DNA of 64,000 nt from an archaeon (GTDB taxonomy: Archaea > EX4484-52 > WAPT01). The stretch lies in NCBI GenBank assembly GCA_029258795.1, contig JAPDKB010000007.1, positions 246,186 to 310,185 on the forward strand, given 5' to 3'. The notes beneath the pieces are model-generated. The model was not told the origin of the DNA. It saw nothing but the letters and a program-made list of their open reading frames with translations, and searched no databases. Shown piece after piece: positions 46,536-59,384 of the stretch (within the stretch, counting starts at the first letter, position 1; each line of letters starts with the position of its first letter). The position numbers were made by a program, and so were the translations under genes.

Positions 46536-47651
46536 TTACTCGGTTTTGAGAGCGCACCATCCTACAGGCTGATTGCTGGATGTCAGCTTGATGGAGAGGG
46601 GGAATTTTCTCCAGTTGTACGCTGATCTTCTCCAGTAATTTCTTACGAGCTGCTCGTAAAGCCAAGAGTTGCGATCTTTTATTATAGAGAGTATTGTTTT
46701 GTACAGGATGCTCGTGTGTGCTCCAAGTCTTACCAGCACCTTATCATCTTCCTGCTTCAGTTCCATATCCCCCATTTCGAAATGATGATCATTTTTTATG
46801 ACAAAATTCGTGAATTCCTTCACGATCTTCAGTGTTCTGTTAATGAACTCTTCCTTTTCCACCTTTTCTCCGAAGATATTCTTCACCACTTCATCAAACT
46901 CTTTCTTGTATTTGTTTCTAACCACATCGAAGTTCGGAGCGATGAGCATTTCTCCCTCGAAGGTTCCTTCCACGCACTCCACCAGAAAGTTACCTCTTCT
47001 GCTCCTAGATCTATTAACCTTTTCTATTCTGATTTCTTCCAGCAGAAGAGTATAGTTTACAGGGCGCATATCCCTCAAAATGAGGAGTTTGAGAAGATCT
47101 TTCTGTGGGTCGTACTTGCTTTCCTTCTCATCAAATTTAGTTTGTCTTTCGAGTGAAAGTAGTATGTCGAGGTATTTCTGAACATATTTTGGTAATTCCT
47201 TTCTATTCTGGACATATCTCTCAATCAAAGACTCTAGTCTCATATAAGCAGAACTATTGTTCTGAAGGATGCTCCATACAAATGCTGTTCTTATGTATCC
47301 TTTAAGAGAACTTCCCGGGATATAAGGAACGTAATTAACATCCTTCATGAACTCCTTAACCTGTCTAGGAGATGATATTCTGCTGGAAGTGTTTGCGGGC
47401 AGCTTTATCTCATAGATTGCATGCTTTTCATCCTTCCTCGCTTCGAGCTTGTTCAAGAGCTGCTCTATCCCTCCTCTGATATCTGAAGATTTCGCAACTT
47501 CTTCAACAAGATCCATATTTTCCTCCAAAAGCTTGGATAAGGAGATCCTGTAAGCAGTGTTACCTTTCACCAGCAATTCTGATGTCAGATAGACCTTATC
47601 TGTGCCTGCACCTATGAAGAGAGGAGTTATTGTACTTAACTCTATTCTCAT
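46536..47651 (-). CDS. csm5: Type III-A CRISPR protein Csm5
   Basis: This 371-aa RAMP protein is the last gene of the csm operon. RIELSTITPLFIGAGTDKVYL at the start is the RAMP first strand (TPLFIGAG), and VPYIPGSSLKGYIRTAFVW is the conserved glycine-rich PGSSLKG motif of the Csm5/Cas7-like family. Csm5 caps the end of the backbone that binds the 3' part of the crRNA. The ATG at 47651 is preceded by GAGGTGA and is 5 nt after the csm4 stop. Confidence 0.9.
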   Translation of the reverse strand: MRIELSTITPLFIGAGTDKVYLTSELLVKGNTAYRISLSKLLEENMDLVEEVAKSSDIRGGIEQLLNKLEARKDEKHAIYEIKLPANTSSRISSPRQVKEFMKDVNYVPYIPGSSLKGYIRTAFVWSILQNNSSAYMRLESLIERYVQNRKELPKYVQKYLDILLSLERQTKFDEKESKYDPQKDLLKLLILRDMRPVNYTLLLEEIRIEKVNRSRSRRGNFLVECVEGTFEGEMLIAPNFDVVRNKYKKEFDEVVKNIFGEKVEKEEFINRTLKIVKEFTNFVIKNDHHFEMGDMELKQEDDKVLVRLGAHTSILYKTILSIIKDRNSWLYEQLVRNYWRRSAYNWRKFPLSIKLTSSNQPVGWCALKTE

Positions 47652-47656
47652 TCTAC

Positions 47657-48694
47657 TCACCTCAGTTCAGCAGCAACATCCCGCCAGTCTGGGAAGGGTA
47701 AAGTGAGAGGTTTTCCCACGAGCGTGTAATTTATCTTCGAGTCCTCATGGACAACTATTTCATAAGAGTAATCCGCCCGTAAAATGGAGCCAGGATGAAG
47801 GAAGGGTGTGAGTCTTATCCTCTCTCCAACCCTGTTGTAGCCGTAGCACACGGAATAAGTGTAAAGGTTACCATCATCCTTCCACGGCTTGCTGTTTTTA
47901 CCCAAAACCCCGTTGGAAAGGAGCATAATGAAGGGATATTTTTCTTTTTTCTCGAAAAGTTTCGAGTCCCATTTTTCCTCTATCTGCGTTATCCTGAATT
48001 TTCCGAAGCCCTCCGTGATTCTCTTACCCAGTCCCCAGTCCTGAAGGAGCTGGAATGCGGAGCACACAATATCGAAGATTTTCCTTTTCTCGTATTCTAT
48101 GAGGATGGAGTAGCTGAGAAGTATTTTTCGGGCGCCCATTTCTATTTCCAAGGATGTGGCTGCTTTCTCATAATAGGGTGTTGCCATCACCGGCAATCTT
48201 TTCATGACATTTTTTGGTATGTCTATCCGCTTAAACCCTGCTCTCAGTAATTGAGGCGGCTCTGCGTTTTTTTCTGTTTCGTTTTTACCCTCCATCTTTT
48301 CGAGCAAGTTCTTGAACTGTTCCATTATTTTTTCCGTGCTTCCCGATTCCAGAGAATCGAGCAGTGCTTTCAGTTGTTCCTCAGATATGTATTTTATTTC
48401 TTTCATCTTTTTAGCTTTCTTTCCTCTTTCCGGATCCTCTTCACCAAAAGCGAGGCTCAGTATCCTAAAGAGTTTTGGCACGGGAAAGTACTGCACATCC
48501 AGATCTTTTGTCACGAGCCTCGGCAGGATAGTAGACATTCTCACTTTATCTTTCTGCAACGCTGAGTAAAGAGCTTCCCCTTTCTCTCTTTCCATTTCAT
48601 AAGCAGCTCTCAAAACTGCTCCGTAGAGCTTGAAGGAATCTATTCTTCCCGCTACAGGAGATTCAAACTGCAGAGTGATTCTGCCCAATGACAT
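47657..48694 (-). CDS. csm4: Type III-A CRISPR protein Csm4
   Basis: This 345-aa protein is the Cas5-like RAMP of the complex. It has a first-strand RITLQFESPVAG and a C-terminal LTPFLHPGSILRADYSYEIV, and a central glycine-rich GLGKRITEGFGKFRITQI, the typical RAMP G-loop. Csm4 binds Cas10 and the 5' handle of the crRNA. A Lys/Glu-rich insertion is present at about residues 95-145. It begins 28 nt after csm3. Confidence 0.88.
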   Translation of the reverse strand: MSLGRITLQFESPVAGRIDSFKLYGAVLRAAYEMEREKGEALYSALQKDKVRMSTILPRLVTKDLDVQYFPVPKLFRILSLAFGEEDPERGKKAKKMKEIKYISEEQLKALLDSLESGSTEKIMEQFKNLLEKMEGKNETEKNAEPPQLLRAGFKRIDIPKNVMKRLPVMATPYYEKAATSLEIEMGARKILLSYSILIEYEKRKIFDIVCSAFQLLQDWGLGKRITEGFGKFRITQIEEKWDSKLFEKKEKYPFIMLLSNGVLGKNSKPWKDDGNLYTYSVCYGYNRVGERIRLTPFLHPGSILRADYSYEIVVHEDSKINYTLVGKPLTLPFPDWRDVAAELR

Positions 48695-48722
48695 GGATAC
48701 CTCCCGTAATTCATTGGGAAAT

Positions 48723-49448
48723 TTAAGGTGAGTAGTTTTCTTCCGTCTTCTCTTCCCTCTCCGTGATCGTTATCTTAACTTTTCCGTATCCTCTGGTTCC
48801 GTGTCCGCCAAGGTAATCGTCGTTGAGCCTTTTAATTGCCTCTCTTACCAGATTCTCGATTTTCTGCTCATCATCTCCCTCATATATTCTCAGGACAAAT
48901 TCCACTTTGAACTTACTTCCTGCAGGGACTCGCTCTATGAATCGTGGATTGGCTCTTGAGAGAATCCTGTTTATCGAGTTCTCAGCCTTTATTTCGCCTC
49001 CTTCCACGATTTCATCCTGCTGGTTCCACCATTTTATGGTTTCTAGCGTGGGTACCGCATCTCTAACTATCAGTCTGGTGGGAGCGTCCTTTACCTTCAC
49101 CTTCTCCGAAGCCGGGTGACCGAAAACCTTGCAGATGAGACAATCGTCTCCGTTCTCCAAACAATCTGTTTTGGTCTCTCCTATCCTGTCCTTATTCTTG
49201 GTATCTATGTGTCCGTATGCTAGATCCAGCAGAGAGCGCATCTTGCCTTTCAGAGAGCTTCCCGGAATTATGGGCAGGTACTGGCATTCTCCCGTTTCCT
49301 GAATAAATACGGGTGCTCTGATAACCGGAGAGTCGACACCACCTATTTTCAGATATTCTCCAGCACCACCTATGTGCAAACCGGTCAGCACCTCGAGCTC
49401 TCCCCTCAGTATTATGTTCTTTTTCCACTTTAATCCGTTCGAGTCCAT
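48723..49448 (-). CDS. csm3: Type III-A CRISPR backbone protein Csm3
   Basis: The Cas7-like backbone subunit and target-RNA slicer. Near residue 39 is LKIGGVDSPVIRAPVF, where the Asp of GVDSPV corresponds to the catalytic Asp of Csm3. LPIIPGSSLKGKMRSLLDLA is the conserved glycine-rich motif, CLICKVFGHPA is a Cys-containing family block and LGGHGTRGYGKVKITI ends the RAMP fold. The slicing residue is intact, so target RNA should be cut at 6-nt intervals. The ATG at 49448 has GAGGTG upstream; a GTG at 49457 overlaps csm2. Confidence 0.93.
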   Translation of the reverse strand: MDSNGLKWKKNIILRGELEVLTGLHIGGAGEYLKIGGVDSPVIRAPVFIQETGECQYLPIIPGSSLKGKMRSLLDLAYGHIDTKNKDRIGETKTDCLENGDDCLICKVFGHPASEKVKVKDAPTRLIVRDAVPTLETIKWWNQQDEIVEGGEIKAENSINRILSRANPRFIERVPAGSKFKVEFVLRIYEGDDEQKIENLVREAIKRLNDDYLGGHGTRGYGKVKITITEREEKTEENYSP

Positions 49449-49453
49449 ATTTT

Positions 49454-49906
49454 TCACCTCTCAGTTTTGTTTTCTTTTTCTTTTTTCCCTTTTTTTGATT
49501 GATTTTCGAAGAATTTGTGATAAGCCACCAAGGCTTTCGTTATTTCATGAAGCTCTTCGAGGTATTTTACCTTTTTATTTTGATCGTTTTCGTCGAGGAT
49601 TTGCTGAATATAATACTCGAAGAAACTGTGTAATTTCAGCGGTACTGGCTGGTTTTTTCTACCAGCCGCGTAGTATATTTTGGTTAAGAACTTAACGAGT
49701 TCTACGTCTATATTCGCTCTCCCCTTCTTGCTTTTTTCTCTGATATCGCTGAGAGCATCATAAATTTTTCTGAGCTGAGTACTGCTTATTTCTTTCTTTT
49801 CTCCCAGGTCTTTTGCTAGCCTGAATATTTCTCCCCCAGGTCGTATGATTTCCGGTAATTTTTCTGCTACTTCATCCAGGCTCGGCAACTCGTATTGGTT
49901 ACCCAT
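49454..49906 (-). CDS. csm2: Type III-A CRISPR small subunit Csm2
   Basis: This 150-aa helical protein fits the Csm2 family: EISSTQLRKIYDALSDIREK is the TTSQIRKFY-like signature, LVKFLTKIYYAAGRK follows, and EELHEITKALVAYHKFFE ends the domain before a Lys/Glu tail. Csm2 forms the small-subunit filament along the target strand. Start overlaps the cas10 stop by 8 nt. Confidence 0.88.
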   Translation of the reverse strand: MGNQYELPSLDEVAEKLPEIIRPGGEIFRLAKDLGEKKEISSTQLRKIYDALSDIREKSKKGRANIDVELVKFLTKIYYAAGRKNQPVPLKLHSFFEYYIQQILDENDQNKKVKYLEELHEITKALVAYHKFFENQSKKGKKEKENKTER

Positions 49907-52436
49907 TCACAATCACCTCATCCAGTTTTATTGCCGGAATGAAATCCAAGCCGAAACGAGTTAACACGAGAAACATTTTGAGGGCAAAGGAAAGGTAACC
50001 TCCTTCTTTATAAGCCCTGCTAGCTTTTCTGACCTTTTCTATGAATTCTTTCATCTCTTCCACATTATTCCCTCTCCAGTTTCGCGAAATGATGTAGTAA
50101 ATGTAAATCTCCGGCACTACTATTACGGGTCTGCCACGCGCCAGCTTTTTTGTTTGCTCTTCTTCATTGTAGGGAAGCGTTAGATTCTCCACCGTGAGAA
50201 GCTTGTAGAACACACTTCTAGAAAGCGCTCTCTCTTTATCCGCTTTGTCATTGGAAAGTGCTGCGAAGGTGTGGTAAAGCTCGATCGCTTTCCAAAACTT
50301 CTCCCATTGAAGATTTTCGTTCTCATCGAACATTGTTATCCTGTTTTTCTCACCTTCCTTGGAGAGGTCAAGAAAGCGGGATGCATTCTCAACCATTCTG
50401 AATATCGGGAACTTGTGAGAGTTGAAATAAAAGCCAGCTGAAATTCCTATTTTTTCATTTCCGCCGCACCACGTGTGGAAGAGTTTTCTCATATCATGCG
50501 TAAAGGAGAGTAGCCTGTCAATTCTCCCCACAACAGTGAGATCGTCTCCTCCCGAAAACACCACATAACAATCATGAACTCTTGCAACTTCATTGACGAT
50601 TTTGGTGAAAAATAGATCGAGCTGAAAACTGAGGGTTGCCAGTCTGGAAGGAGATAACCTGTCCACAAATCCGAACCTGAAGACATGGCCAAGGTTATCC
50701 ACATCAGCTTTGAGCATTGCGAGATAGGCATTTCTCTTTTCTTCATCCACCCGAGCCCCATCCACCCAAGTCAGTTCCTCCAATGTTTTAACTCTAACGC
50801 TCTTTCCGTCTTCCCCTTTCTCTACCGGTGTGTAGCTGCCAGTGATGAAGTAACCGTGAACACCTTGGCTGCTTTGAGAGGGTTTCAGGAGAAGCACTAG
50901 ATCCGCTCCTTCGCTTTTTCCATCAAGATAATATCGTATGGAGAAATCGCCAAACTTGAATGCTATGTGCGATCTCTCCTCCTCAAAATCGTTTATTCTT
51001 GCTCTCAAAAAGCTTGACCTCACAACTCTCCCACCAACCATTTCCAGCTGGAAGCACTTCTCACATTTCTGAAACTCGTCATCTTCTCCTTCCTGCCTCA
51101 CCTTTCTAAGCCCGCACACCCTGCAGGTTTCATCCTCTCCAGTGGGCGCGTCCTCCCTGTCAAGCTCCTTCCTACCAAACATCTCAAACCTCAGCTTTTT
51201 CATTTCGGTGTCGATTCTGGCCTTTTTAAGAAGGCTTGAGAACCATCCCTCCTTATTTATATCCTCAACGCCAACTCCGATGGCTATTTTCAGTATTCCT
51301 CCGTGGCGGGAGTAGAGGAACCTGTTCACATTTTCCTGAAACTCTCTAACCATCTTCTCCAGTTCATTGGTATAGGGTGCTAGGATCATGAAGTGTCCTC
51401 CCGCCTTGGAAACTATGTTGAAGGGTGTCAGCCTCAGCTCGTGCAGGATGTAGCGGACAACAGCATCCGAAAGCAGGGAGACGTAGAAGCTCCTTCCTCT
51501 CAGCCTTTTCGATGCTCCCTTCTCCGATCCTTCTCCCCTGTATGTGTAGAAGATGAAGTCCTGAATTCCGGATACATCTCCCTCTATCAGAGCGATTTTG
51601 TTTTTGTGAGGGGTGTTTCTGCTTCTGAAGAGGATTAAAGCTATGGCTGCCGTCATTTTGAGGTGATGGTAAAGAGGTATGTCAGGTACATCAACATAAA
51701 CCGCTGAGGGGACGAATATTAGGTGGTTCATCAGCACGGCATCCAGAGCATCGAGAAAGTAGGGATCGCTGTAATCCAGAGAGTTCAGTGCCTTGAGAAG
51801 TCTCTCATTTATTATTTTGTAGCACTCGGTTAGAGTTTGTGATTCCTTGTTCTCTATTATTGCACGCGAAACCCTTACTGCCTGTGCCTTTTCAGCCGGC
51901 ATGAAGCGTTTGTAACCCTCTTTGTAACTCTCCTCAATGTTGAATTTCCCGAGAAAGTCCTCAAGAGATATCATCGGAAAGAATTTGAGCGTGCTCTGAT
52001 TTGCTTCTCTCATACCATTTCTCACATCACTCTCGCTCATCCCGATGGTGGAGATGATGGAGAGGAGTGGCGTGTCCTCTCTCCTACCCCTGATGTCTTC
52101 TTCTTTCTCCTCCTCACCCTTCAGTTTGGTTCTTTCCGCTCTCGCAGAAATTATGTCAGCCTGCTTTATTATTTTCAACTCCTCCCTATCGATGTTCTCA
52201 TGATGGTTTATGACAACATCCGCGATGTACTTCCTCAGCTCTTCCGGGAGAGATTTCACCTTCTCTATGAACTTTGATCCGCATTTTCCGTGATCTTCTT
52301 TCAGAAAGACTGTGCTCACCTTCCCGATGTCGTGAAAAACTGCTGCGAGAACGAGCCTTTCTTCGTCAGAAGTCAGCCCGTAATGAAAGGTTTTACCCCC
52401 TATGACCACCACCGATTTGATTTTGTCGGGTTTCAA
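49899..52436 (-). CDS. cas10: Type III-A signature protein Cas10/Csm1
   Basis: This 845-aa protein starts with an HD nuclease domain (AAVFHDIGKVSTVF with the HD at about 35-36, and VINHHENIDREEL), which should cut single-stranded DNA. A Palm domain and a zinc region with four Cys (CRVCG and CEKC) follow. The cyclase Palm has FSGGDDLTVVG with GGDD at about residues 629-632, the site that makes cyclic oligoadenylates from ATP. Both active sites look intact. The start is a TTG with GAGG upstream. It is divergent from cas1 and first in the csm operon. Confidence 0.95.
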   Translation of the reverse strand: MKPDKIKSVVVIGGKTFHYGLTSDEERLVLAAVFHDIGKVSTVFLKEDHGKCGSKFIEKVKSLPEELRKYIADVVINHHENIDREELKIIKQADIISARAERTKLKGEEEKEEDIRGRREDTPLLSIISTIGMSESDVRNGMREANQSTLKFFPMISLEDFLGKFNIEESYKEGYKRFMPAEKAQAVRVSRAIIENKESQTLTECYKIINERLLKALNSLDYSDPYFLDALDAVLMNHLIFVPSAVYVDVPDIPLYHHLKMTAAIALILFRSRNTPHKNKIALIEGDVSGIQDFIFYTYRGEGSEKGASKRLRGRSFYVSLLSDAVVRYILHELRLTPFNIVSKAGGHFMILAPYTNELEKMVREFQENVNRFLYSRHGGILKIAIGVGVEDINKEGWFSSLLKKARIDTEMKKLRFEMFGRKELDREDAPTGEDETCRVCGLRKVRQEGEDDEFQKCEKCFQLEMVGGRVVRSSFLRARINDFEEERSHIAFKFGDFSIRYYLDGKSEGADLVLLLKPSQSSQGVHGYFITGSYTPVEKGEDGKSVRVKTLEELTWVDGARVDEEKRNAYLAMLKADVDNLGHVFRFGFVDRLSPSRLATLSFQLDLFFTKIVNEVARVHDCYVVFSGGDDLTVVGRIDRLLSFTHDMRKLFHTWCGGNEKIGISAGFYFNSHKFPIFRMVENASRFLDLSKEGEKNRITMFDENENLQWEKFWKAIELYHTFAALSNDKADKERALSRSVFYKLLTVENLTLPYNEEEQTKKLARGRPVIVVPEIYIYYIISRNWRGNNVEEMKEFIEKVRKASRAYKEGGYLSFALKMFLVLTRFGLDFIPAIKLDEVIVNG

Positions 52437-52472
52437 TCTGGCCTCTAAAATTTAAATTGGTATTTCTAATGG

Positions 52473-52491
52473 TTTAGATTTTCAGTCTAAA
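52473..52491. promoter_or_regulatory. Palindrome in the cas10-cas1 divergent spacer, candidate operator
   Basis: TTTAGA and TCTAAA are inverted arms around TTTTCAG. The 19-bp site agrees at 16 of 19 positions with the palindrome 59366-59384 upstream of the csa3-like gene. It lies midway between the cas10 and cas1 starts, where one bound dimer could control both directions. Confidence 0.6.
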
Positions 52492-52535
52492 CGTTTGCAG
52501 AAAAGCATAAAATAGATGCGGGATAGCCAATCCTG

Positions 52536-53483
52536 ATGAAAGAGCACATCTACGTTGTTTCCAGCGGCGTGATCTACAGGGAGAGGAACACGCTGGTCAT
52601 AGCGGGAGAGGAAAAGGTCGTTCTGCCGGTGAAGAGGGTCGCGTCCCTTCACATCTACGGCAACGTTTCCATAGCATCTCCCACGCTCAGGCTGCTGAGC
52701 GAGAACAACATTCCGGCTTACTTTTTCTCCAGAAATTACACTTACCACGGCGCTTTCATTCCAGCGGGATGGAAGGAGAACGGCAGGGTATTGCTGGCGC
52801 AGAGCAAGGCGTATTTTGATAAGCGCATTCATCTGGCAAGGTTCTTCGTGGAGAGTGTGAAGAACAGCATGCTTCTCTTTCTCAAAAACCATTACGATGC
52901 CGAGATTGTTAAGGAGATCAAAGGTGTGCGCCTCGAAGCTGCTTCCACCGTGCACGAGCTTCTCGGCATGGAGAGCGTGCTGTGGAAGCATTTTTACAGT
53001 TTTCTGCGTGATCATCTTGAATTTCTCGAGTTCGAGAGAAGGGTTTACAGACCTCCACCGGACAGTGGAAATGCTGTCATAAGCTTCGTTAACTCCCTTC
53101 TCTACGGCGCGGTTCTAAACGAGATATACAACTCTGCCCTATCTCCATCCATCGGATATCTCCACGAGGTGGATGAGTGGAGGCATGCGCTCGTTCTGGA
53201 CGTGGCGGACGTGTTCAAACCGGTGATATGCGCACCCGTTCTGCTGAGAGCTGATAAGGTGCTCGGGGAGGAGCATTTTGAAAAGAGGGGATGTGCTGTC
53301 TATCTAACTCGTGAGGGCAGATCTGCTGTGGTTGAGCTTTTCGAAAGGAAAATGAAAAGCACCGTGAGAATAAAGCGAACGGGAAAGACATCGAGCGTGA
53401 GAACTGCCATAAGATCCTTCTGCGTGGGGCTCAAGGACAGTCTCCTCAGGAAGAAAGAAATTTATCCTTACACCCCGTGGTGA
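52536..53483 (+). CDS. cas1: CRISPR adaptation endonuclease Cas1
   Basis: This 315-aa integrase has the Cas1 layout: MKEHIYVVSSGVIYRERNTL strands, LHIYGNVSIASPTLRLLSEN and IPAYFFS. The metal residues follow: Glu near 146 (LLGMESVLWK), His near 210 (SIGYLHE) and Asp near 222-225 (LDVADVFKP). It inserts new spacers with Cas2. A CATAAAATA box about 27 nt upstream supports a leaderless ATG at 52536. It overlaps cas2 as TGATG. Confidence 0.96.
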   Translation: MKEHIYVVSSGVIYRERNTLVIAGEEKVVLPVKRVASLHIYGNVSIASPTLRLLSENNIPAYFFSRNYTYHGAFIPAGWKENGRVLLAQSKAYFDKRIHLARFFVESVKNSMLLFLKNHYDAEIVKEIKGVRLEAASTVHELLGMESVLWKHFYSFLRDHLEFLEFERRVYRPPPDSGNAVISFVNSLLYGAVLNEIYNSALSPSIGYLHEVDEWRHALVLDVADVFKPVICAPVLLRADKVLGEEHFEKRGCAVYLTREGRSAVVELFERKMKSTVRIKRTGKTSSVRTAIRSFCVGLKDSLLRKKEIYPYTPW

Positions 53484-53752
53484 TGGCTGTGTACTGCATA
53501 GTGGTTTACGATGTGGATGTGAGCAGGGTGGACAGGGTTCACAAGTTTCTCAGGCAGTATCTGTTCTGGATTCAGAACTCCGTTTTCGAGGGGGAACTCA
53601 CCGCTCAGGAGTTCAGGGAGGTAGTTAGGGGTTTGAAATCCATAATAGATGAAAGCAAGGACAGCGTTGTTATCTACGTGCTGAGGGATGCGAGCCTCAT
53701 AAAGAGATCCATCATAGGACAGGACAAGAACAGATTCTCCCGGATAATATGA
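53483..53752 (+). CDS. cas2: CRISPR adaptation protein Cas2
   Basis: The 89-aa protein is a typical Cas2: AVYCIVVYDVDVSRVDRVHK (ferredoxin-fold first strand with the DVD), FWIQNSVFEGELT (QNSVFEG) and DSVVIYVLRD. It bridges the Cas1 dimers. The ATG at 53483 overlaps the cas1 stop. The leader and array begin directly after its stop. Confidence 0.95.
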   Translation: MAVYCIVVYDVDVSRVDRVHKFLRQYLFWIQNSVFEGELTAQEFREVVRGLKSIIDESKDSVVIYVLRDASLIKRSIIGQDKNRFSRII

Positions 53753-53870
53753 TCGCTTACAATTATACCAATATGACCTACGTTTCAAGCACAGCGCAAA
53801 GATTAACCAGAAAATCAAGATGGAAAGACATTTAAAACTCAGATGCGCGAAATAACCATCGCAGGCGAGG
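53753..53870 (+). promoter_or_regulatory. CRISPR leader with promoter
   Basis: This 118-bp non-coding stretch separates cas2 from the first repeat. TTTAAAA at 53831-53837 is a TATA-like element that would place a transcription start near 53858, just before the array. All repeats at this end are identical while those at the far end are degenerate, which marks this side as the leader. Confidence 0.8.
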
Positions 53871-56253
53871 GTTTGAGAAGAACTAGATAGTGTGGGAGCG
53901 CAAATATTACTTAATAGCTTGGTGGCTTTATTTTCCAAGTTTGAGAAGAACTAGATAGTGTGGGAGTTCCCACCTAAAGCTAAACTTTGTGCCACCACAT
54001 TCCTTAGTTTGAGAAGAACTAGATAGTGTGGGAGTTAATCATCTTCATCCTCTATTTTCCTAACTACAATTAAAGTTTGAGAAGAACTAGATAGTGTGGG
54101 AGCCAGCTAAAATACGGCAAGGCAACACACCCAAAACCAACCGTTTGGTTTGAGAAGAACTAGATAGTGTGGGAGCCTGGCTTTTCCTTTTTTCTTTCTT
54201 GGGTCCTTAACTATGTTCAGTTTGAGAAGAACTAGATAGTGTGGGAGCCGCTTCATTTTTGGCGTTACACTTATCCTTGCCTTTTTGTGTTTGAGAAGAA
54301 CTAGATAGTGTGGGAGTTCCCTGAAAACTCCGTAACTCTGTCCCTAACGCTATATTGTTTGAGAAGAACTAGATAGTGTGGGAGTGTGAATTGATTTTAA
54401 AGCTTCATCATGAATACGCTTAAAATCGTTTGAGAAGAACTAGATAGTGTGGGAGACATTGGCTTCTGAGCTTAAACTTAGAAATGGACAAACGGTAAGT
54501 TTGAGAAGAACTAGATAGTGTGGGAGCTTTTTTACATTAGTCCAACACTTTGGGTAGGGTGCTGGTTTGAGAAGAACTAGATAGTGTGGGAGTCCCCTAA
54601 ATATCGGTAACCCACTTCTACCTTATATCGTGTTTGAGAAGAACTAGATAGTGTGGGAGTCGGCGATGAACTCGTCCCATGTCATAACTCCTCACCTGCT
54701 CCGTTTGAGAAGAACTAGATAGTGTGGGAGCAGACCTTTTGTTTAATTTCTGTTACGTATATCGATTTTCCTGTTTGAGAAGAACTAGATAGTGTGGGAG
54801 TGTTTTGTTTTTGAAATGTAGCGTTATTTGTGTCATGCTAGTTTGAGAAGAACTAGATAGTGTGGGAGTTTTCCCATTTTTCTCGTGTGATTTTAGTCAT
54901 CACATCACCTCGTTTGAGAAGAACTAGATAGTGTGGGAGTGCGATGGATTGGGTAATCTCTGAGCATCGCGTACGCACATGTTTGAGAAGAACTAGATAG
55001 TGTGGGAGTATACCTCTTTATCTCAAAAAAATCTATCGCTCTTTTCATCCCCGTTTGAGAAGAACTAGATAGTGTGGGAGCGTTTTCGTCAACACCAAGA
55101 GATTTCAAGAACTGGGGTGGAAGGGTTTGAGAAGAACTAGATAGTGTGGGAGTTTCGTTATTGTGTTTAAAAGCCGTGTTGTTAAGTTCCTGTCCGTTTG
55201 AGAAGAACTAGGTAGTGTGGGAGAAGGTAAGAATTCCAGAAAAAACAACAGAAAGATTGGCAAGTTTGAGAAGAACTAGATAGTGTGGGAGAATGTTTCT
55301 ATTGCATATATCCTATCCTCGACCTCAATGGTTTGAGAAGAACTAGGTAGTGTGGGGGTGTTTTTTTGTTTTTATTATTTTATCTAATGCTTCATTCATA
55401 TGTTTGAGAAGAACTAGGTAGTGTGGGAGTCCTTGTCCATCCCTTTCTTAATTCTGTCAAGCTCAAGAGTTTGAGAAGAACTAGATAGTGTGGTAGTGTA
55501 ATTACAAACCCAACGGCAGCTAATATCAAAGCTGCTTGTGTTTGAGAAGAACTAGATAGTGTGGTAGATTACCCATCTTTACCTGCTTCACTACCTTCCT
55601 GCTGACCGTTTGGTTTGAGAAGAACTAGATAGTGTGGGAGTTGCCCAGCCACCACTTTTTTGTTCCTCAAACACTCCGCTTGTTTGAGAAGAACTAGATA
55701 GTGTGGAAGTCACCTTCATGCCTGATCTCAAGGCTGGCCTTACTCAACAGTTTGAGAAGAACTAGGTAGTGTGGTAGCCTCAGCATGCTTTCCTTATCTC
55801 TATATGGACAGATCCGTGGTTTGAGAAGAACTAGATAGTGTGGTAGGTACTTTCCATGTTGCAATGACACCACAACTTCTGCGTTTGTTTGAGAAGAACT
55901 AGATAGTGTGGTAGGACACCACAACCTTATCGTTTCCATCTCTGCATCACCTTTGTTTGAGAAGAACTAGATAGTGTGGTGGTTGATTGTATGCTCGGAT
56001 GTGCGAGGTTCAATTCATCGGTTTGAGAAGAACTAGATAGTGTGGTGGTCGAACTTTTCCGATTTTAGTGCGTGCTTTATAGGATTGTGTTTGAGAAGAA
56101 CTAGATAGTGTGGAAGTTTCCGTTAATTCCATGCTTGCTATACCGCTCGCTTTCCAGTTTGAGAAGAACTGGGTAGTGTGGAAGAGTTGGAACGTTCTGA
56201 AGCCTTCTCGTCACACATAAAATTGAGTTTAAGAAGAACTAGATAGTGTGAAG
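53871..56253 (+). CRISPR. CRISPR array, 35 repeats and 34 spacers
   Basis: The repeat is 28 bp, beginning GTTTGAGAAG, with ACTAGATAG in the middle and ending GTGTGGGAG. By direct counting, repeats start at 53871, 53939, 54007, 54075, 54148 and so on to 56157 and 56227. Periods are 66-73 bp, so spacers are 38-45 bp. Repeats 1-19 are identical. From repeat 20 on there are variants in the last five bases (GGTAG, GGTGG, GGAAG) and an A-to-G change in the middle (ACTAGG). The last copy (56227-56253) is 27 bp with two changes. The array is flanked by cas2 on the left and the csm6-like gene on the right. Transcription is left to right from the leader. Confidence 0.98.
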
Positions 56254-56441
56254 TTCAAAATCCTTGCCGGAAATGTTTTGAGCGTGAGATCGGGATTTGA
56301 GAGAGTTAAGCATGAAGGTTAGCATGCAAAACACTATTTCTTCAGCCGCTTTTATATGAAGTGTGCAGCCTAACGTGAAGAGAAAGTCCGTAACACAGAA
56401 ATTGTAAATAGCACTGGACACTTAGATATTATTTTTCTTTG
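56254..56441. promoter_or_regulatory. Trailer/promoter region before the csm6-like gene
   Basis: These 188 bp contain no repeat copy. TTTTATAT at 56350-56357 is a likely TATA box. ACACTTAGAT at 56418-56427 repeats exactly the ten bases that open the palindrome region upstream of csa3 (59364-59373) and could be an operator half-site. Confidence 0.5.
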
Positions 56442-57794
56442 ATGTTCATAAGAAACCTCGGCAATGTTTTTAAAATTTTTGAGGACATACTACCTCTGAT
56501 GTTTGAAAAAACTCCAAAAAGTGGACTGATAATAAGCGTTGGGGTCGGTCAGGGAATAGAAAGCGCGATCTGCTACTCCATATCGGTCTCTCACCCCGAC
56601 AAAGTTATTTTTCTGGTCACGCCGCAAAGCGAGAAGGACACGATGGAAAGAGTGCAGAAGGAATGCGCAAAAAAGGACGTCGAAATACCCGAAAGCGAGC
56701 TGATTCTGATTGAAAATGAGAATGATGTTGAAGCTGTGTTTAAGAAAGCAAGGGAAGCCATAAAAAGAATGAGAAAAAGCGATATCCCTCCTGCGAACAT
56801 AACGGTGGATTACACTTACGGCACGAAATCCATGTCTGCAGGACTCCTCTATGCCACGATACTAGAAAGGTGTGGTCATATAAGGTATGTAACCGGTAAG
56901 CGAGATTCAAAAACAGGGAGAGTTATCCCGGGTACGGAGAAGGAACTCACAACCAGCATTCGGGATCTTCTTGCTCCTATAGTGATAAAGGACGCTATAT
57001 CATTCTTCAACCTCTACCAGTTTGCTGCGGCAAAACGTGTTCTGGAAAGTTTTCTTGAAGGGATGGATGAGGAAAGTGCCATGAAAGTCTACCCATCCAT
57101 CTGTCGGCTTTTCAAGCTGTGCGAGGTTTACAGGCATTGGGATGCCTTCAACCACGAAGATGCTTTGAAGGCATTTGAAGAAGTCGACAGAGAAGCTATA
57201 AGGAATATTGCTCCGCAGATAGGTGTAAATAAGGGCTGGCTGGGGAAAATAGTTAACGGGTTAAAAGGAGAAGAAGGTTTGAATTTCGCGGAAGAACTAC
57301 TTGTAGATCTCTGGATGAACGCAAGGAGAAGGATGGAGGAGGAAAGGTACGTTGATGCGGTTTCAAGGTTTTACAGACTCACAGAAATGATAGCACAGCA
57401 CCAGCTGGAAAAGAACTACGGAATCGACACAAGAAATGTAGATATTGAGAAGGTTCCGGAAAATCTAAGAAATGAGCTGGGAAATTACAGAGATGAGAAG
57501 GGAAAAATCAAAATCCCTCTCTTCAAGGCATATGAGCTTCTAGCAAGTTTGGGAGACCCACTGGGCAAAAAAGTTATGGAAGACGAAAATACTTACAAAC
57601 TCTTCAGGTCAGTCATCAGTTTCAGAAACAACTCAATCGCTGCTCACGGAACCCAGCTAGTTGGAAAGGACTTCGCCGAAAAGTTTGAAAAATTCGTCGA
57701 GGAGCTGTTGAAGGAGGCGATTGGAGAAAGGAAGCTGGAGAAGATGGAGAAGGAAGCTGCTTTCCCAAAACTTGACCCCCAAAAAATAAGCTAA
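56442..57794 (+). CDS. CARF-HEPN effector ribonuclease, Csm6-like (Cas02710 type)
   Basis: This protein of 450 aa is a type III ancillary effector. The N-terminal CARF Rossmann domain has GLIISVGVGQGIESAICYS and, at about residues 122-130, VDYTYGTKSMSAGLL. The latter is the (G)TKxM ligand-loop hallmark of the Cas02710/TIGR02710 branch. The C-terminal HEPN domain carries RNNSIAAHG at about 394-402, the R-x6-H ribonuclease motif. Cyclic oligoadenylate from Cas10 would switch on RNA cleavage. Both sites look intact. The ATG at 56442 is preferred to the adjacent TTG. It lies directly after the array and before cas6. Confidence 0.88.
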   Translation: MFIRNLGNVFKIFEDILPLMFEKTPKSGLIISVGVGQGIESAICYSISVSHPDKVIFLVTPQSEKDTMERVQKECAKKDVEIPESELILIENENDVEAVFKKAREAIKRMRKSDIPPANITVDYTYGTKSMSAGLLYATILERCGHIRYVTGKRDSKTGRVIPGTEKELTTSIRDLLAPIVIKDAISFFNLYQFAAAKRVLESFLEGMDEESAMKVYPSICRLFKLCEVYRHWDAFNHEDALKAFEEVDREAIRNIAPQIGVNKGWLGKIVNGLKGEEGLNFAEELLVDLWMNARRRMEEERYVDAVSRFYRLTEMIAQHQLEKNYGIDTRNVDIEKVPENLRNELGNYRDEKGKIKIPLFKAYELLASLGDPLGKKVMEDENTYKLFRSVISFRNNSIAAHGTQLVGKDFAEKFEKFVEELLKEAIGERKLEKMEKEAAFPKLDPQKIS

Positions 57795-57815
57795 GCTCTG
57801 TGAGGGAGTTACGGG

Positions 57816-58562
57816 ATGAGAATAGTGATCCTTCTCAAACCACTCACGAATGCATCTTATGATGCGATAAACAAGCATCACATCCAAGCTACAATATACT
57901 CCCTCCTTAGATCCACACCTTTTGATATCATCCATGAGCTCAGAGGGTTTAAGTACTTCACCTTCTCTGACATAATGCCTCCCACAGATTTTAAAGAAGG
58001 TGAGCCAAAGCACATGCTCTTCAGCTCGCCCATGTCTTCACTGGTCAAATTCCTGAAAAACAGAATAAAAGAGGTGGGACGTGTCAAAATAAAAGATATA
58101 TGGTTCGAGGTTGATGTGAAAACCGTACCTCAGAAATTCACCACAAGATGGATCACCGCAAGCCCCATAGTGCTTTATAAAGATTCGAGGAAAAATGTTT
58201 ACTTCTCCTTTTACCGGGACACGAATCTCCAGTTCTTCCTGGACAGGCTGAAGGAAAATGCTCTGAAGAAATACAACATCTACTACAACGATGAGCTGAA
58301 TTTTGAAGAGCCCCTCTTCGACATCATGAAATTCAACAAATCCGTATCGGTAGAGCTGACCAAAGATAAGAAAAAGTTCATAATCATAGGGAGCACATGG
58401 AAACTCCTTGAAAAGATCAGGGTGCCCCGGCATCTCAGAAAGTTCTACAGATTTATATTTGATTGCGGACTCGGAGAAAAGAACAGCCTTGGTTTCGGTT
58501 GTCTGAACGAACATCCCAGCCTCAGGAAACACTCTTCTCGATCTCGTAAATCTCAAGCATAG
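57816..58562 (+). CDS. cas6: CRISPR RNA endonuclease Cas6
   Basis: This 248-aa RAMP protein has an N-terminal ferredoxin fold (MRIVILLKPLTNASYDAINK) and, near the C-terminus, the glycine-rich loop CGLGEKNSLGFGCL that marks Cas6. His residues near the N-terminus (NKHHIQATIYSLL) are candidates for the active site. It cuts the precursor within repeats to leave an 8-nt 5' handle. It follows the csm6-like gene by 21 nt, and its last 41 nt overlap the end of the csa3-like gene on the other strand. Confidence 0.93.
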   Translation: MRIVILLKPLTNASYDAINKHHIQATIYSLLRSTPFDIIHELRGFKYFTFSDIMPPTDFKEGEPKHMLFSSPMSSLVKFLKNRIKEVGRVKIKDIWFEVDVKTVPQKFTTRWITASPIVLYKDSRKNVYFSFYRDTNLQFFLDRLKENALKKYNIYYNDELNFEEPLFDIMKFNKSVSVELTKDKKKFIIIGSTWKLLEKIRVPRHLRKFYRFIFDCGLGEKNSLGFGCLNEHPSLRKHSSRSRKSQA

Positions 58563-59169
58563 CCCTGCCTATATCCGTCAGGTACACCACCTTTCTCTTG
58601 CCATCATACCTGTAATCGATCATACCCCATGTTCTCATTTTCTCCAGGTGTGTTTTTACGGTTGTGTCTGTGAGGTTAAGCTCTCTCGAGATTTCGTGCT
58701 GTGTAAGGATGCGCTCTCTCAGAAGCCTTGCTATTCTGTATCTCTGTCCCCTCAAACCGAAAAACGGCGATGTGTCGAGCTTTGGTGAGGGCACTTCCAC
58801 ATACTCCATCGTACCGTCCTTTCTCCTGAAAATGTAGAAAGCCTTTCCCCCCACGATCATGGTGTAGATGTAGAGCGCGAGAACCATGATCTTTGTTCCG
58901 CCGGTGATGTTTGAGATCACATCATCTCCCACTCTGTATTTCACGCTCTTCCTCAGATCTGTTAGAATGACGTCAAGCCGGGAAGCATCGCTCACTATCA
59001 CCTCAACTTCTCTGTAGAGTTTCTCGATGGCATTCCTGATGTCCTCGGCCATTCCGAATGTTTCCTGAGAACAGAGCAGGTAAACTCTGTCTATCCTGCT
59101 GTGATATCTGAAACCCTCCAGAACGGGTGATTCCTGCTCACCAACGCTGCAGATCATTATCCTTTTCAT
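58522..59169 (-). CDS. csa3: CARF-HTH transcription regulator, Csa3-like
   Basis: This 215-aa protein has an N-terminal CARF domain (MKRIMICSVGEQESPVLEGF, then VISNITGGTKIMVLALYIYT with the GGTK ligand loop). A winged helix-turn-helix follows (RILTQHEISRELNLTDTTVK, HLEKMRTWGMIDYRYDGKRK). Csa3-type regulators control cas genes and arrays and may sense cyclic oligoadenylate. The gene is convergent with cas6 and its promoter is bracketed by a 13-bp inverted repeat. GGTGAGG lies before the ATG. No ligand specificity can be read. Confidence 0.88.
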   Translation of the reverse strand: MKRIMICSVGEQESPVLEGFRYHSRIDRVYLLCSQETFGMAEDIRNAIEKLYREVEVIVSDASRLDVILTDLRKSVKYRVGDDVISNITGGTKIMVLALYIYTMIVGGKAFYIFRRKDGTMEYVEVPSPKLDTSPFFGLRGQRYRIARLLRERILTQHEISRELNLTDTTVKTHLEKMRTWGMIDYRYDGKRKVVYLTDIGRAMLEIYEIEKSVS

Positions 59170-59178
59170 GACCTCACC

Positions 59179-59247
59179 GCGGACAGCACCCTTTCAAATA
59201 GAAGCTAGCGTTTCCATTTTTATTAAATTTTGCCGGGTGCTGTCCGC
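59179..59247. promoter_or_regulatory. 13-bp inverted repeat bracketing the csa3 promoter
   Basis: GCGGACAGCACCC at 59179-59191 and its exact reverse complement GGGTGCTGTCCGC at 59235-59247 flank 43 bp that contain an AT-rich TATA-like box (about 59213-59230). The downstream arm is just before the Shine-Dalgarno sequence and the upstream arm is beyond the TATA box. The upstream arm is therefore not in the transcript, and a DNA operator pair fits better than an RNA hairpin. Confidence 0.65.
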
Positions 59248-59365
59248 TCGGTCGGAGAAGTCAGATTCCTCCCGTGATCTTTTCCCCACATTTTTCTTCC
59301 ATCACCTCCGCGAGAGCTTTTGATAAAAAACTGGATTCGCCACTTTAAAGGCTCTTTTCTAAACA

Positions 59366-59384
59366 CTTAGATTTTGAATCTAAA
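59366..59384. promoter_or_regulatory. Palindrome upstream of csa3, candidate operator
   Basis: TTAGATT and AATCTAA are perfect 7-bp arms around TTG (59367-59383). The 19-bp site is very similar to the one between cas10 and cas1. It lies about 200 bp upstream of the csa3 start, in the non-coding stretch 59248-59454 which otherwise holds nothing I recognise. Confidence 0.6.

Follow-up and report, generated by a model that had tools for sequence, protein, structure and literature searches.

The window, the whole 64,000-nucleotide stretch of DNA that was analysed, comes from a small archaeon whose closest relatives are found in records named DPANN, Nanoarchaeota, and Aenigmarchaeota. It carries a type III-A CRISPR locus, which consists of cas10/csm1 to csm5, the divergent genes cas1 and cas2, a CRISPR array, a csm6-like gene, cas6, and a convergent gene that encodes a CARF-wHTH protein. 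The principal genes are as follows.

46536..49906, minus strand: csm2, csm3, csm4, and csm5, downstream of cas10 (profile search)
49899..52436, minus strand: cas10/csm1 (TIGR02578)
52536..53752, plus strand: cas1 and cas2 (profile search)
56439..57794, plus strand: csm6-like CARF-HEPN gene (TIGR02710)
58522..59169, minus strand: csa3-like gene (CARF plus ArsR-type wHTH), encoding the candidate binder discussed below (profiles, predicted structure)

The repeats of the CRISPR array (53872-56250) degenerate toward 56250, and thus the leader end adjoins cas2. The longest cas10 open reading frame begins upstream of the likely transcription start (52400-52436); translation more likely begins at a GTG near 52409, as it does in the sister genome, G002. 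The csa3 and cas6 genes are convergent, with 3' ends that overlap by ~41 bp (58522-58562); the overlap persists, though shorter, in G002 and in Nanoarchaeota SZUA-1535. G002 also has a second CARF gene upstream of csm6 (L053:1705-3084; Csx1-like, TIGR01897 just under the cut-off), which adjoins a CRISPR repeat at a contig end.

The Csa3-like protein is modelled with confidence (pLDDT 90.9) as an N-terminal CARF domain and a C-terminal wHTH domain. It shares this architecture with the Csa3 family (TIGR01884), and the Csa3 structures 2wte and 6wxq are the best full-length matches of the model. However, it scores 42.7 bits against TIGR01884, below the curated cut-off of 60.2 (its relatives score 42.4-56.9), its CARF domain is by sequence nearest to Can2/Card1, and the Csa3-specific cA4 motif 1, defined as G-F-(N/D) after strand 1 (PMC8844856), is absent; residues 9-12 are VGEQ. 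The general CARF motif for cOA (cyclic oligoadenylate), (D/N)-X-(S/T)-X3-(R/K), is present as NITGGTK at residues 87-93 and is invariant in four genomes. The N-terminal part of the protein also matches, above the cut-off, PF19810, the family of the haloarchaeal cas-gene repressor HFX_2341 (PMC11434293). HFX_2341, in contrast, is a global regulator of type I-B hosts that is also present in CRISPR-less genomes, whereas the regulator here is encoded by a type III-A locus. No relatives of csa3 were found in a search of viral contigs.

Two intergenic regions of the locus contain closely similar palindromes:

52473..52491, no strand assigned: operator A, core palindrome TTTAGA-N7-TCTAAA between the divergent cas10 and cas1 genes (exact match)
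59366..59384, no strand assigned: operator B, core palindrome 5' of csa3 (motif scan; the G002 counterpart has one mismatch)

As the first-pass annotation had noticed, the sequences of operator A (TTTAGATTTTCAGTCTAAA) and operator B (CTTAGATTTTGAATCTAAA) are identical at 16 of 19 positions, and both have TTAGA/TCTAA arms. Operator A lies 44 bp from the cas1 ATG. The exact motif TTAGA-N7-TCTAA occurs twice in the window versus 0.097 expected from 300 first-order Markov simulations, and at least two copies are present in 0.3% of these simulations. When the two intergenic regions are shuffled by mononucleotide, the motif re-arises 7 and 16 times per 20,000 shuffles. Equivalent matches scattered through many intergenic regions would have argued against a dedicated operator; a scan of the 1.17 Mb genome yields only three exact copies, the two operator sites and one within coding sequence (C12:2126), leaving the operators as the sole intergenic matches. 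The CRISPR leader lacks the motif in the same kind of scan. If one mismatch is allowed, the core is not enriched genome-wide (32 matches versus 57 for a reversed control), and therefore specificity resides in the full element rather than in a loose version of its core.

Comparison of the same intergenic regions in relatives, a check that the first-pass annotation had called for, finds the element positionally conserved in three further genomes. Clear sites are thus present in four genomes (the window, G002, SZUA-1535, and Aenigmarchaeota ex4484_52) and a suggestive one in a fifth, from a Heimdallarchaeota; all are uncultured. G002, whose csa3 is 68% identical to that of the window, has a single exact core genome-wide; it occupies the cas10-cas1 intergenic region, 46 bp from the start of cas1. 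A copy with one mismatch precedes csa3 in G002 at a distance of 190 bp, close to the 196 bp of the window. SZUA-1535 (44-45% identity) has a perfect TTTAGA-N7-TCTAAA between divergent cas1 and csa3, and ex4484_52 (32-34% identity) has the core between cas1 and csa3-cas10, which are likewise divergent. In the Heimdallarchaeota genome an exact core is found 48 bp ahead of the start codon of the homologue (23%); this site is only suggestive because that genome contains 23 such cores. Additional exact cores were seen inside a coding sequence of SZUA-1535, as the third in that genome, and in ex4484_52 at L153:1109-1125 (G016 C36), outside any open reading frame of at least 90 codons.

Within the 250 bp preceding each of 27 further archaeal cas1 genes, no site comes closer to the core (12 positions) than 3 mismatches, compared with 0, 0, and 1 for the genomes with csa3 that were included in the scan. 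The element is also missing upstream of the distantly related CARF-wHTH genes that were scanned, the true start being unsettled in a few. Among close relatives there is neither a genome with the operator and no regulator nor the reverse, so the pairing of operator and regulator rests on few cases.

Alignment of the sites in the direction of their genes indicates that the element is longer than the first-pass annotation had given it: it is 27 bp with three half-sites, TTTAGA-N7-TCTAAA-NN-TTTAGA, the third half-site starting after the 2 bases that follow the palindrome and adjoining a candidate BRE/TATA box. The parts of this extended arrangement in the window are:

52494..52499, plus strand: operator A third half-site toward cas1, TTTGCA, 4 of 6 to TTTAGA (site alignment)
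52465..52470, minus strand: operator A outer half-site toward cas10, ATTAGA, 5 of 6 (site alignment)
59358..59363, minus strand: operator B third half-site toward csa3, TTTAGA, 6 of 6 (site alignment)
52507..52514, plus strand: candidate TATA box of cas1, ATAAAATA (read from sequence)
52449..52456, minus strand: candidate TATA box of cas10, TTTAAATT (read from sequence)
59342..59349, minus strand: candidate TATA box of a long csa3 transcript, TTTAAAGT (read from sequence)

The element is thereby positioned upstream of candidate BRE/TATA boxes for the divergent cas10-csm and cas1-cas2 operons and for the csa3-like gene. At several sites a TATA-like box starts 6-9 bp beyond the third half-site; the candidate box of cas1 starts 7 bp past it and ~25 bp before the ATG. 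Across the window, G002, and SZUA-1535 the third half-site agrees with TTTAGA at 4-6 of its 6 bases; in ex4484_52 it is degenerate (2-3 of 6). With a tolerance of up to 2 mismatches, the long pattern hits nothing but the operators in the window genome and in G002. The pattern is matched perfectly at two places in SZUA-1535, one of which is the known cas1/csa3 site. The other, which was outside the set used to build the pattern, lies 35 bp ahead of an operon comprising a csm6-like gene, cas10/csm1, csm2, csm3, and csm4 (csm2-4 being assigned from order and sequence).

Judged by sequence and conservation together, the two palindromes are a real, conserved regulatory element. The idea that they are a coincidence in AT-rich intergenic DNA draws on the unenriched one-mismatch core, yet it has to contend with the low expected count per window, the conserved position in four genomes, the further site at the csm6-cas10 operon, and the empty 27 control promoters. 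It is already contradicted by the conservation and is very improbable.

The first-pass annotation had proposed a third, half-length copy of the operator before the csm6-like gene:

56418..56427, plus strand: half-site ACACTTAGAT preceding the csm6-like gene; rejected as an operator

The ten bases are indeed present there, and their partner copy on the csa3 side lies at 59363-59372, one base from where it had been placed. About 4% of shuffles yield a comparable shared 10-mer, and no counterpart was found upstream of csm6 in G002. As a single half-site of this frequency, lacking a counterpart in the sister genome, it looks like chance and was dropped as an operator, although a full operator upstream of csm6 is seen in another genome, SZUA-1535. 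Of the three sites once grouped together, those at cas10/cas1 and csa3 therefore stand and the csm6 half-site does not. A common operator at the two remaining sites is strongly supported, because the element is unique among the intergenic sequences of its genome, keeps its place in three other genomes, and in its longer version predicted the csm6-cas10 site.

The protein that binds this element is likely to be the Csa3-like protein. It is the best candidate because the element accompanies its gene in all five genomes, occupies the promoter region of that gene, and does not occur at the other 27 archaeal cas1 promoters. The confident CARF-wHTH model, with Csa3 as its top full-length structural match, and the NITGGTK motif also speak for this protein. 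Many archaeal wHTH proteins recognise short palindromes rich in AT, and another DNA-binding protein of these archaea could bind a truly shared operator of which the csa3-like gene is just one target. However, the co-occurrence with csa3, which extends down to ~34% protein identity, and the control cas1 promoters make such a binder unlikely. The best explanation, to which we give a probability of roughly 78%, is a small CRISPR regulon in which the palindromes serve as operators and the Csa3-like protein binds them.

A precedent exists in the Sulfolobales, where the CAPPa palindrome, TCCCN8GGGA (PMC8699464, PMC4333418), stands 12 bp ahead of the BRE of acquisition genes in Sulfolobus (PMC8699464), at which Csa3a activates (PMC4333418). 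In both cases a CRISPR-specific palindrome that is rare elsewhere lies just upstream of the BRE/TATA of adaptation genes and co-occurs with a CARF-wHTH regulator. Unlike CAPPa, the element here is TTTAGAN7TCTAAA with three half-sites, and it also occurs at the gene for the regulator itself and at an effector operon of type III, but not in the CRISPR leader. Counting against the proposed regulon, binding of Sulfolobus Csa3a to CAPPa was nonspecific and unchanged by cA4 (PMC8699464, PMC8844856); the missing cA4 motif 1 of the regulator counts against it as well. As far as we have found, then, this is a real and conserved CRISPR operator of which an analogous form has come hitherto from the Sulfolobales only; the Csa3 operators that we found described belong to their type I-A systems, in which specific binding and the cA4 effect are disputed (PMC8699464, PMC8844856). 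In the present locus, a conserved and clean element of 27 bp ties a CARF regulator to the operon that produces its presumed signal, and such a pair of short DNA and protein would permit a direct test of cyclic oligoadenylate (cOA) control over transcription.

In the proposed mechanism, a dimer of the Csa3-like protein would occupy the core palindrome, and a further subunit or dimer would occupy the third half-site beside the BRE. During infection, cOA made by Cas10 would bind the CARF domain and change operator binding; an effect of cOA on DNA binding is inferred for this protein. The Csa3-like protein would thus set how strongly the adaptation genes, the effector that makes cOA, and its own gene are expressed, forming a feedback loop. 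We lean toward an activator rather than a repressor, since the element is upstream of BRE/TATA at near-constant spacing. A repressor that cOA releases, such that the locus is induced only upon infection, is conceivable but less favoured. The third half-site directly abuts the BRE, a place from which the bound regulator could obstruct TFB, and over-expression of HFX_2341, whose N-terminal family matches this CARF, lowers cas transcripts (PMC11434293); yet the site is wholly upstream of BRE/TATA with the kind of spacing seen for the activator Csa3a (PMC4333418, PMC8699464).

The ~150 nt leader between operator B and csa3 contains a short open reading frame led by an SD and a perfect 13-bp hairpin:

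59301-59309, minus strand: perfect SD GGAGGTGAT before the short open reading frame (read from sequence)
59223..59291, minus strand: short open reading frame of 22 codons, ATG at 59291 (read from sequence)
59235..59247, minus strand: 5' arm of the hairpin, GCGGACAGCACCC (conserved, with changes on both sides)
59179..59191, minus strand: 3' arm of the hairpin, GGGTGCTGTCCGC, then the csa3 SD GGTGA (possible kink-turn, GGU-GA / GA)

In the window the short frame overlaps the 5' arm, and the hairpin has a z of about -5. Short frames led by an SD are likewise present in the csa3 leaders of G002, SZUA-1535, and ex4484_52, although their peptides are not conserved; in SZUA-1535 and ex4484_52 the frame ends at the csa3 start. 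This placement suggests translational coupling. The position of the hairpin is retained in G002 and SZUA-1535, and the hairpin is weak in ex4484_52. Among the window, G002, and SZUA-1535 sequences, stem positions 5, 7, and 9 covary (A-U to G-C, A-U to G-C, and C-G to A-U, respectively). The arms recur elsewhere in the genome only as one single-mismatch match, which favours a local element, and the inverted repeat was rejected as a dispersed DNA operator.

At csa3 only, the hairpin at the ribosome-binding site, entered by the short frame, probably adds translational control. For the window and G002 sequences a kink-turn drawing of the hairpin is feasible, with a stem, a 3-nt bulge (GGU), tandem G-A pairs, and GACC/GGUC. 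With its SD by the turn, this resembles the L7Ae kink-turn leaders of archaeal l7ae mRNAs (PMC5539422, PMC6298567), but the possible kink-turn here is on the mRNA of a CRISPR regulator, has a long, stable stem, and loses its outer stem in SZUA-1535. The kink-turn reading is tentative because the outer (NC-stem) pairs are mismatched in that genome; an Rfam search of the leader gave nothing above chance. As an alternative to a leader hairpin, the inverted repeat may flank a second promoter, given the TATA-like sequences in the loop. A bolder reading, less likely than not, is a type III-A system wired as a closed signalling loop. A transcription factor that senses cOA would act through a three-half-site operator on the adaptation genes, on its own gene, and on the operon for the cOA synthase, and a kink-turn or short-frame switch in the leader of its mRNA would add a translational layer.
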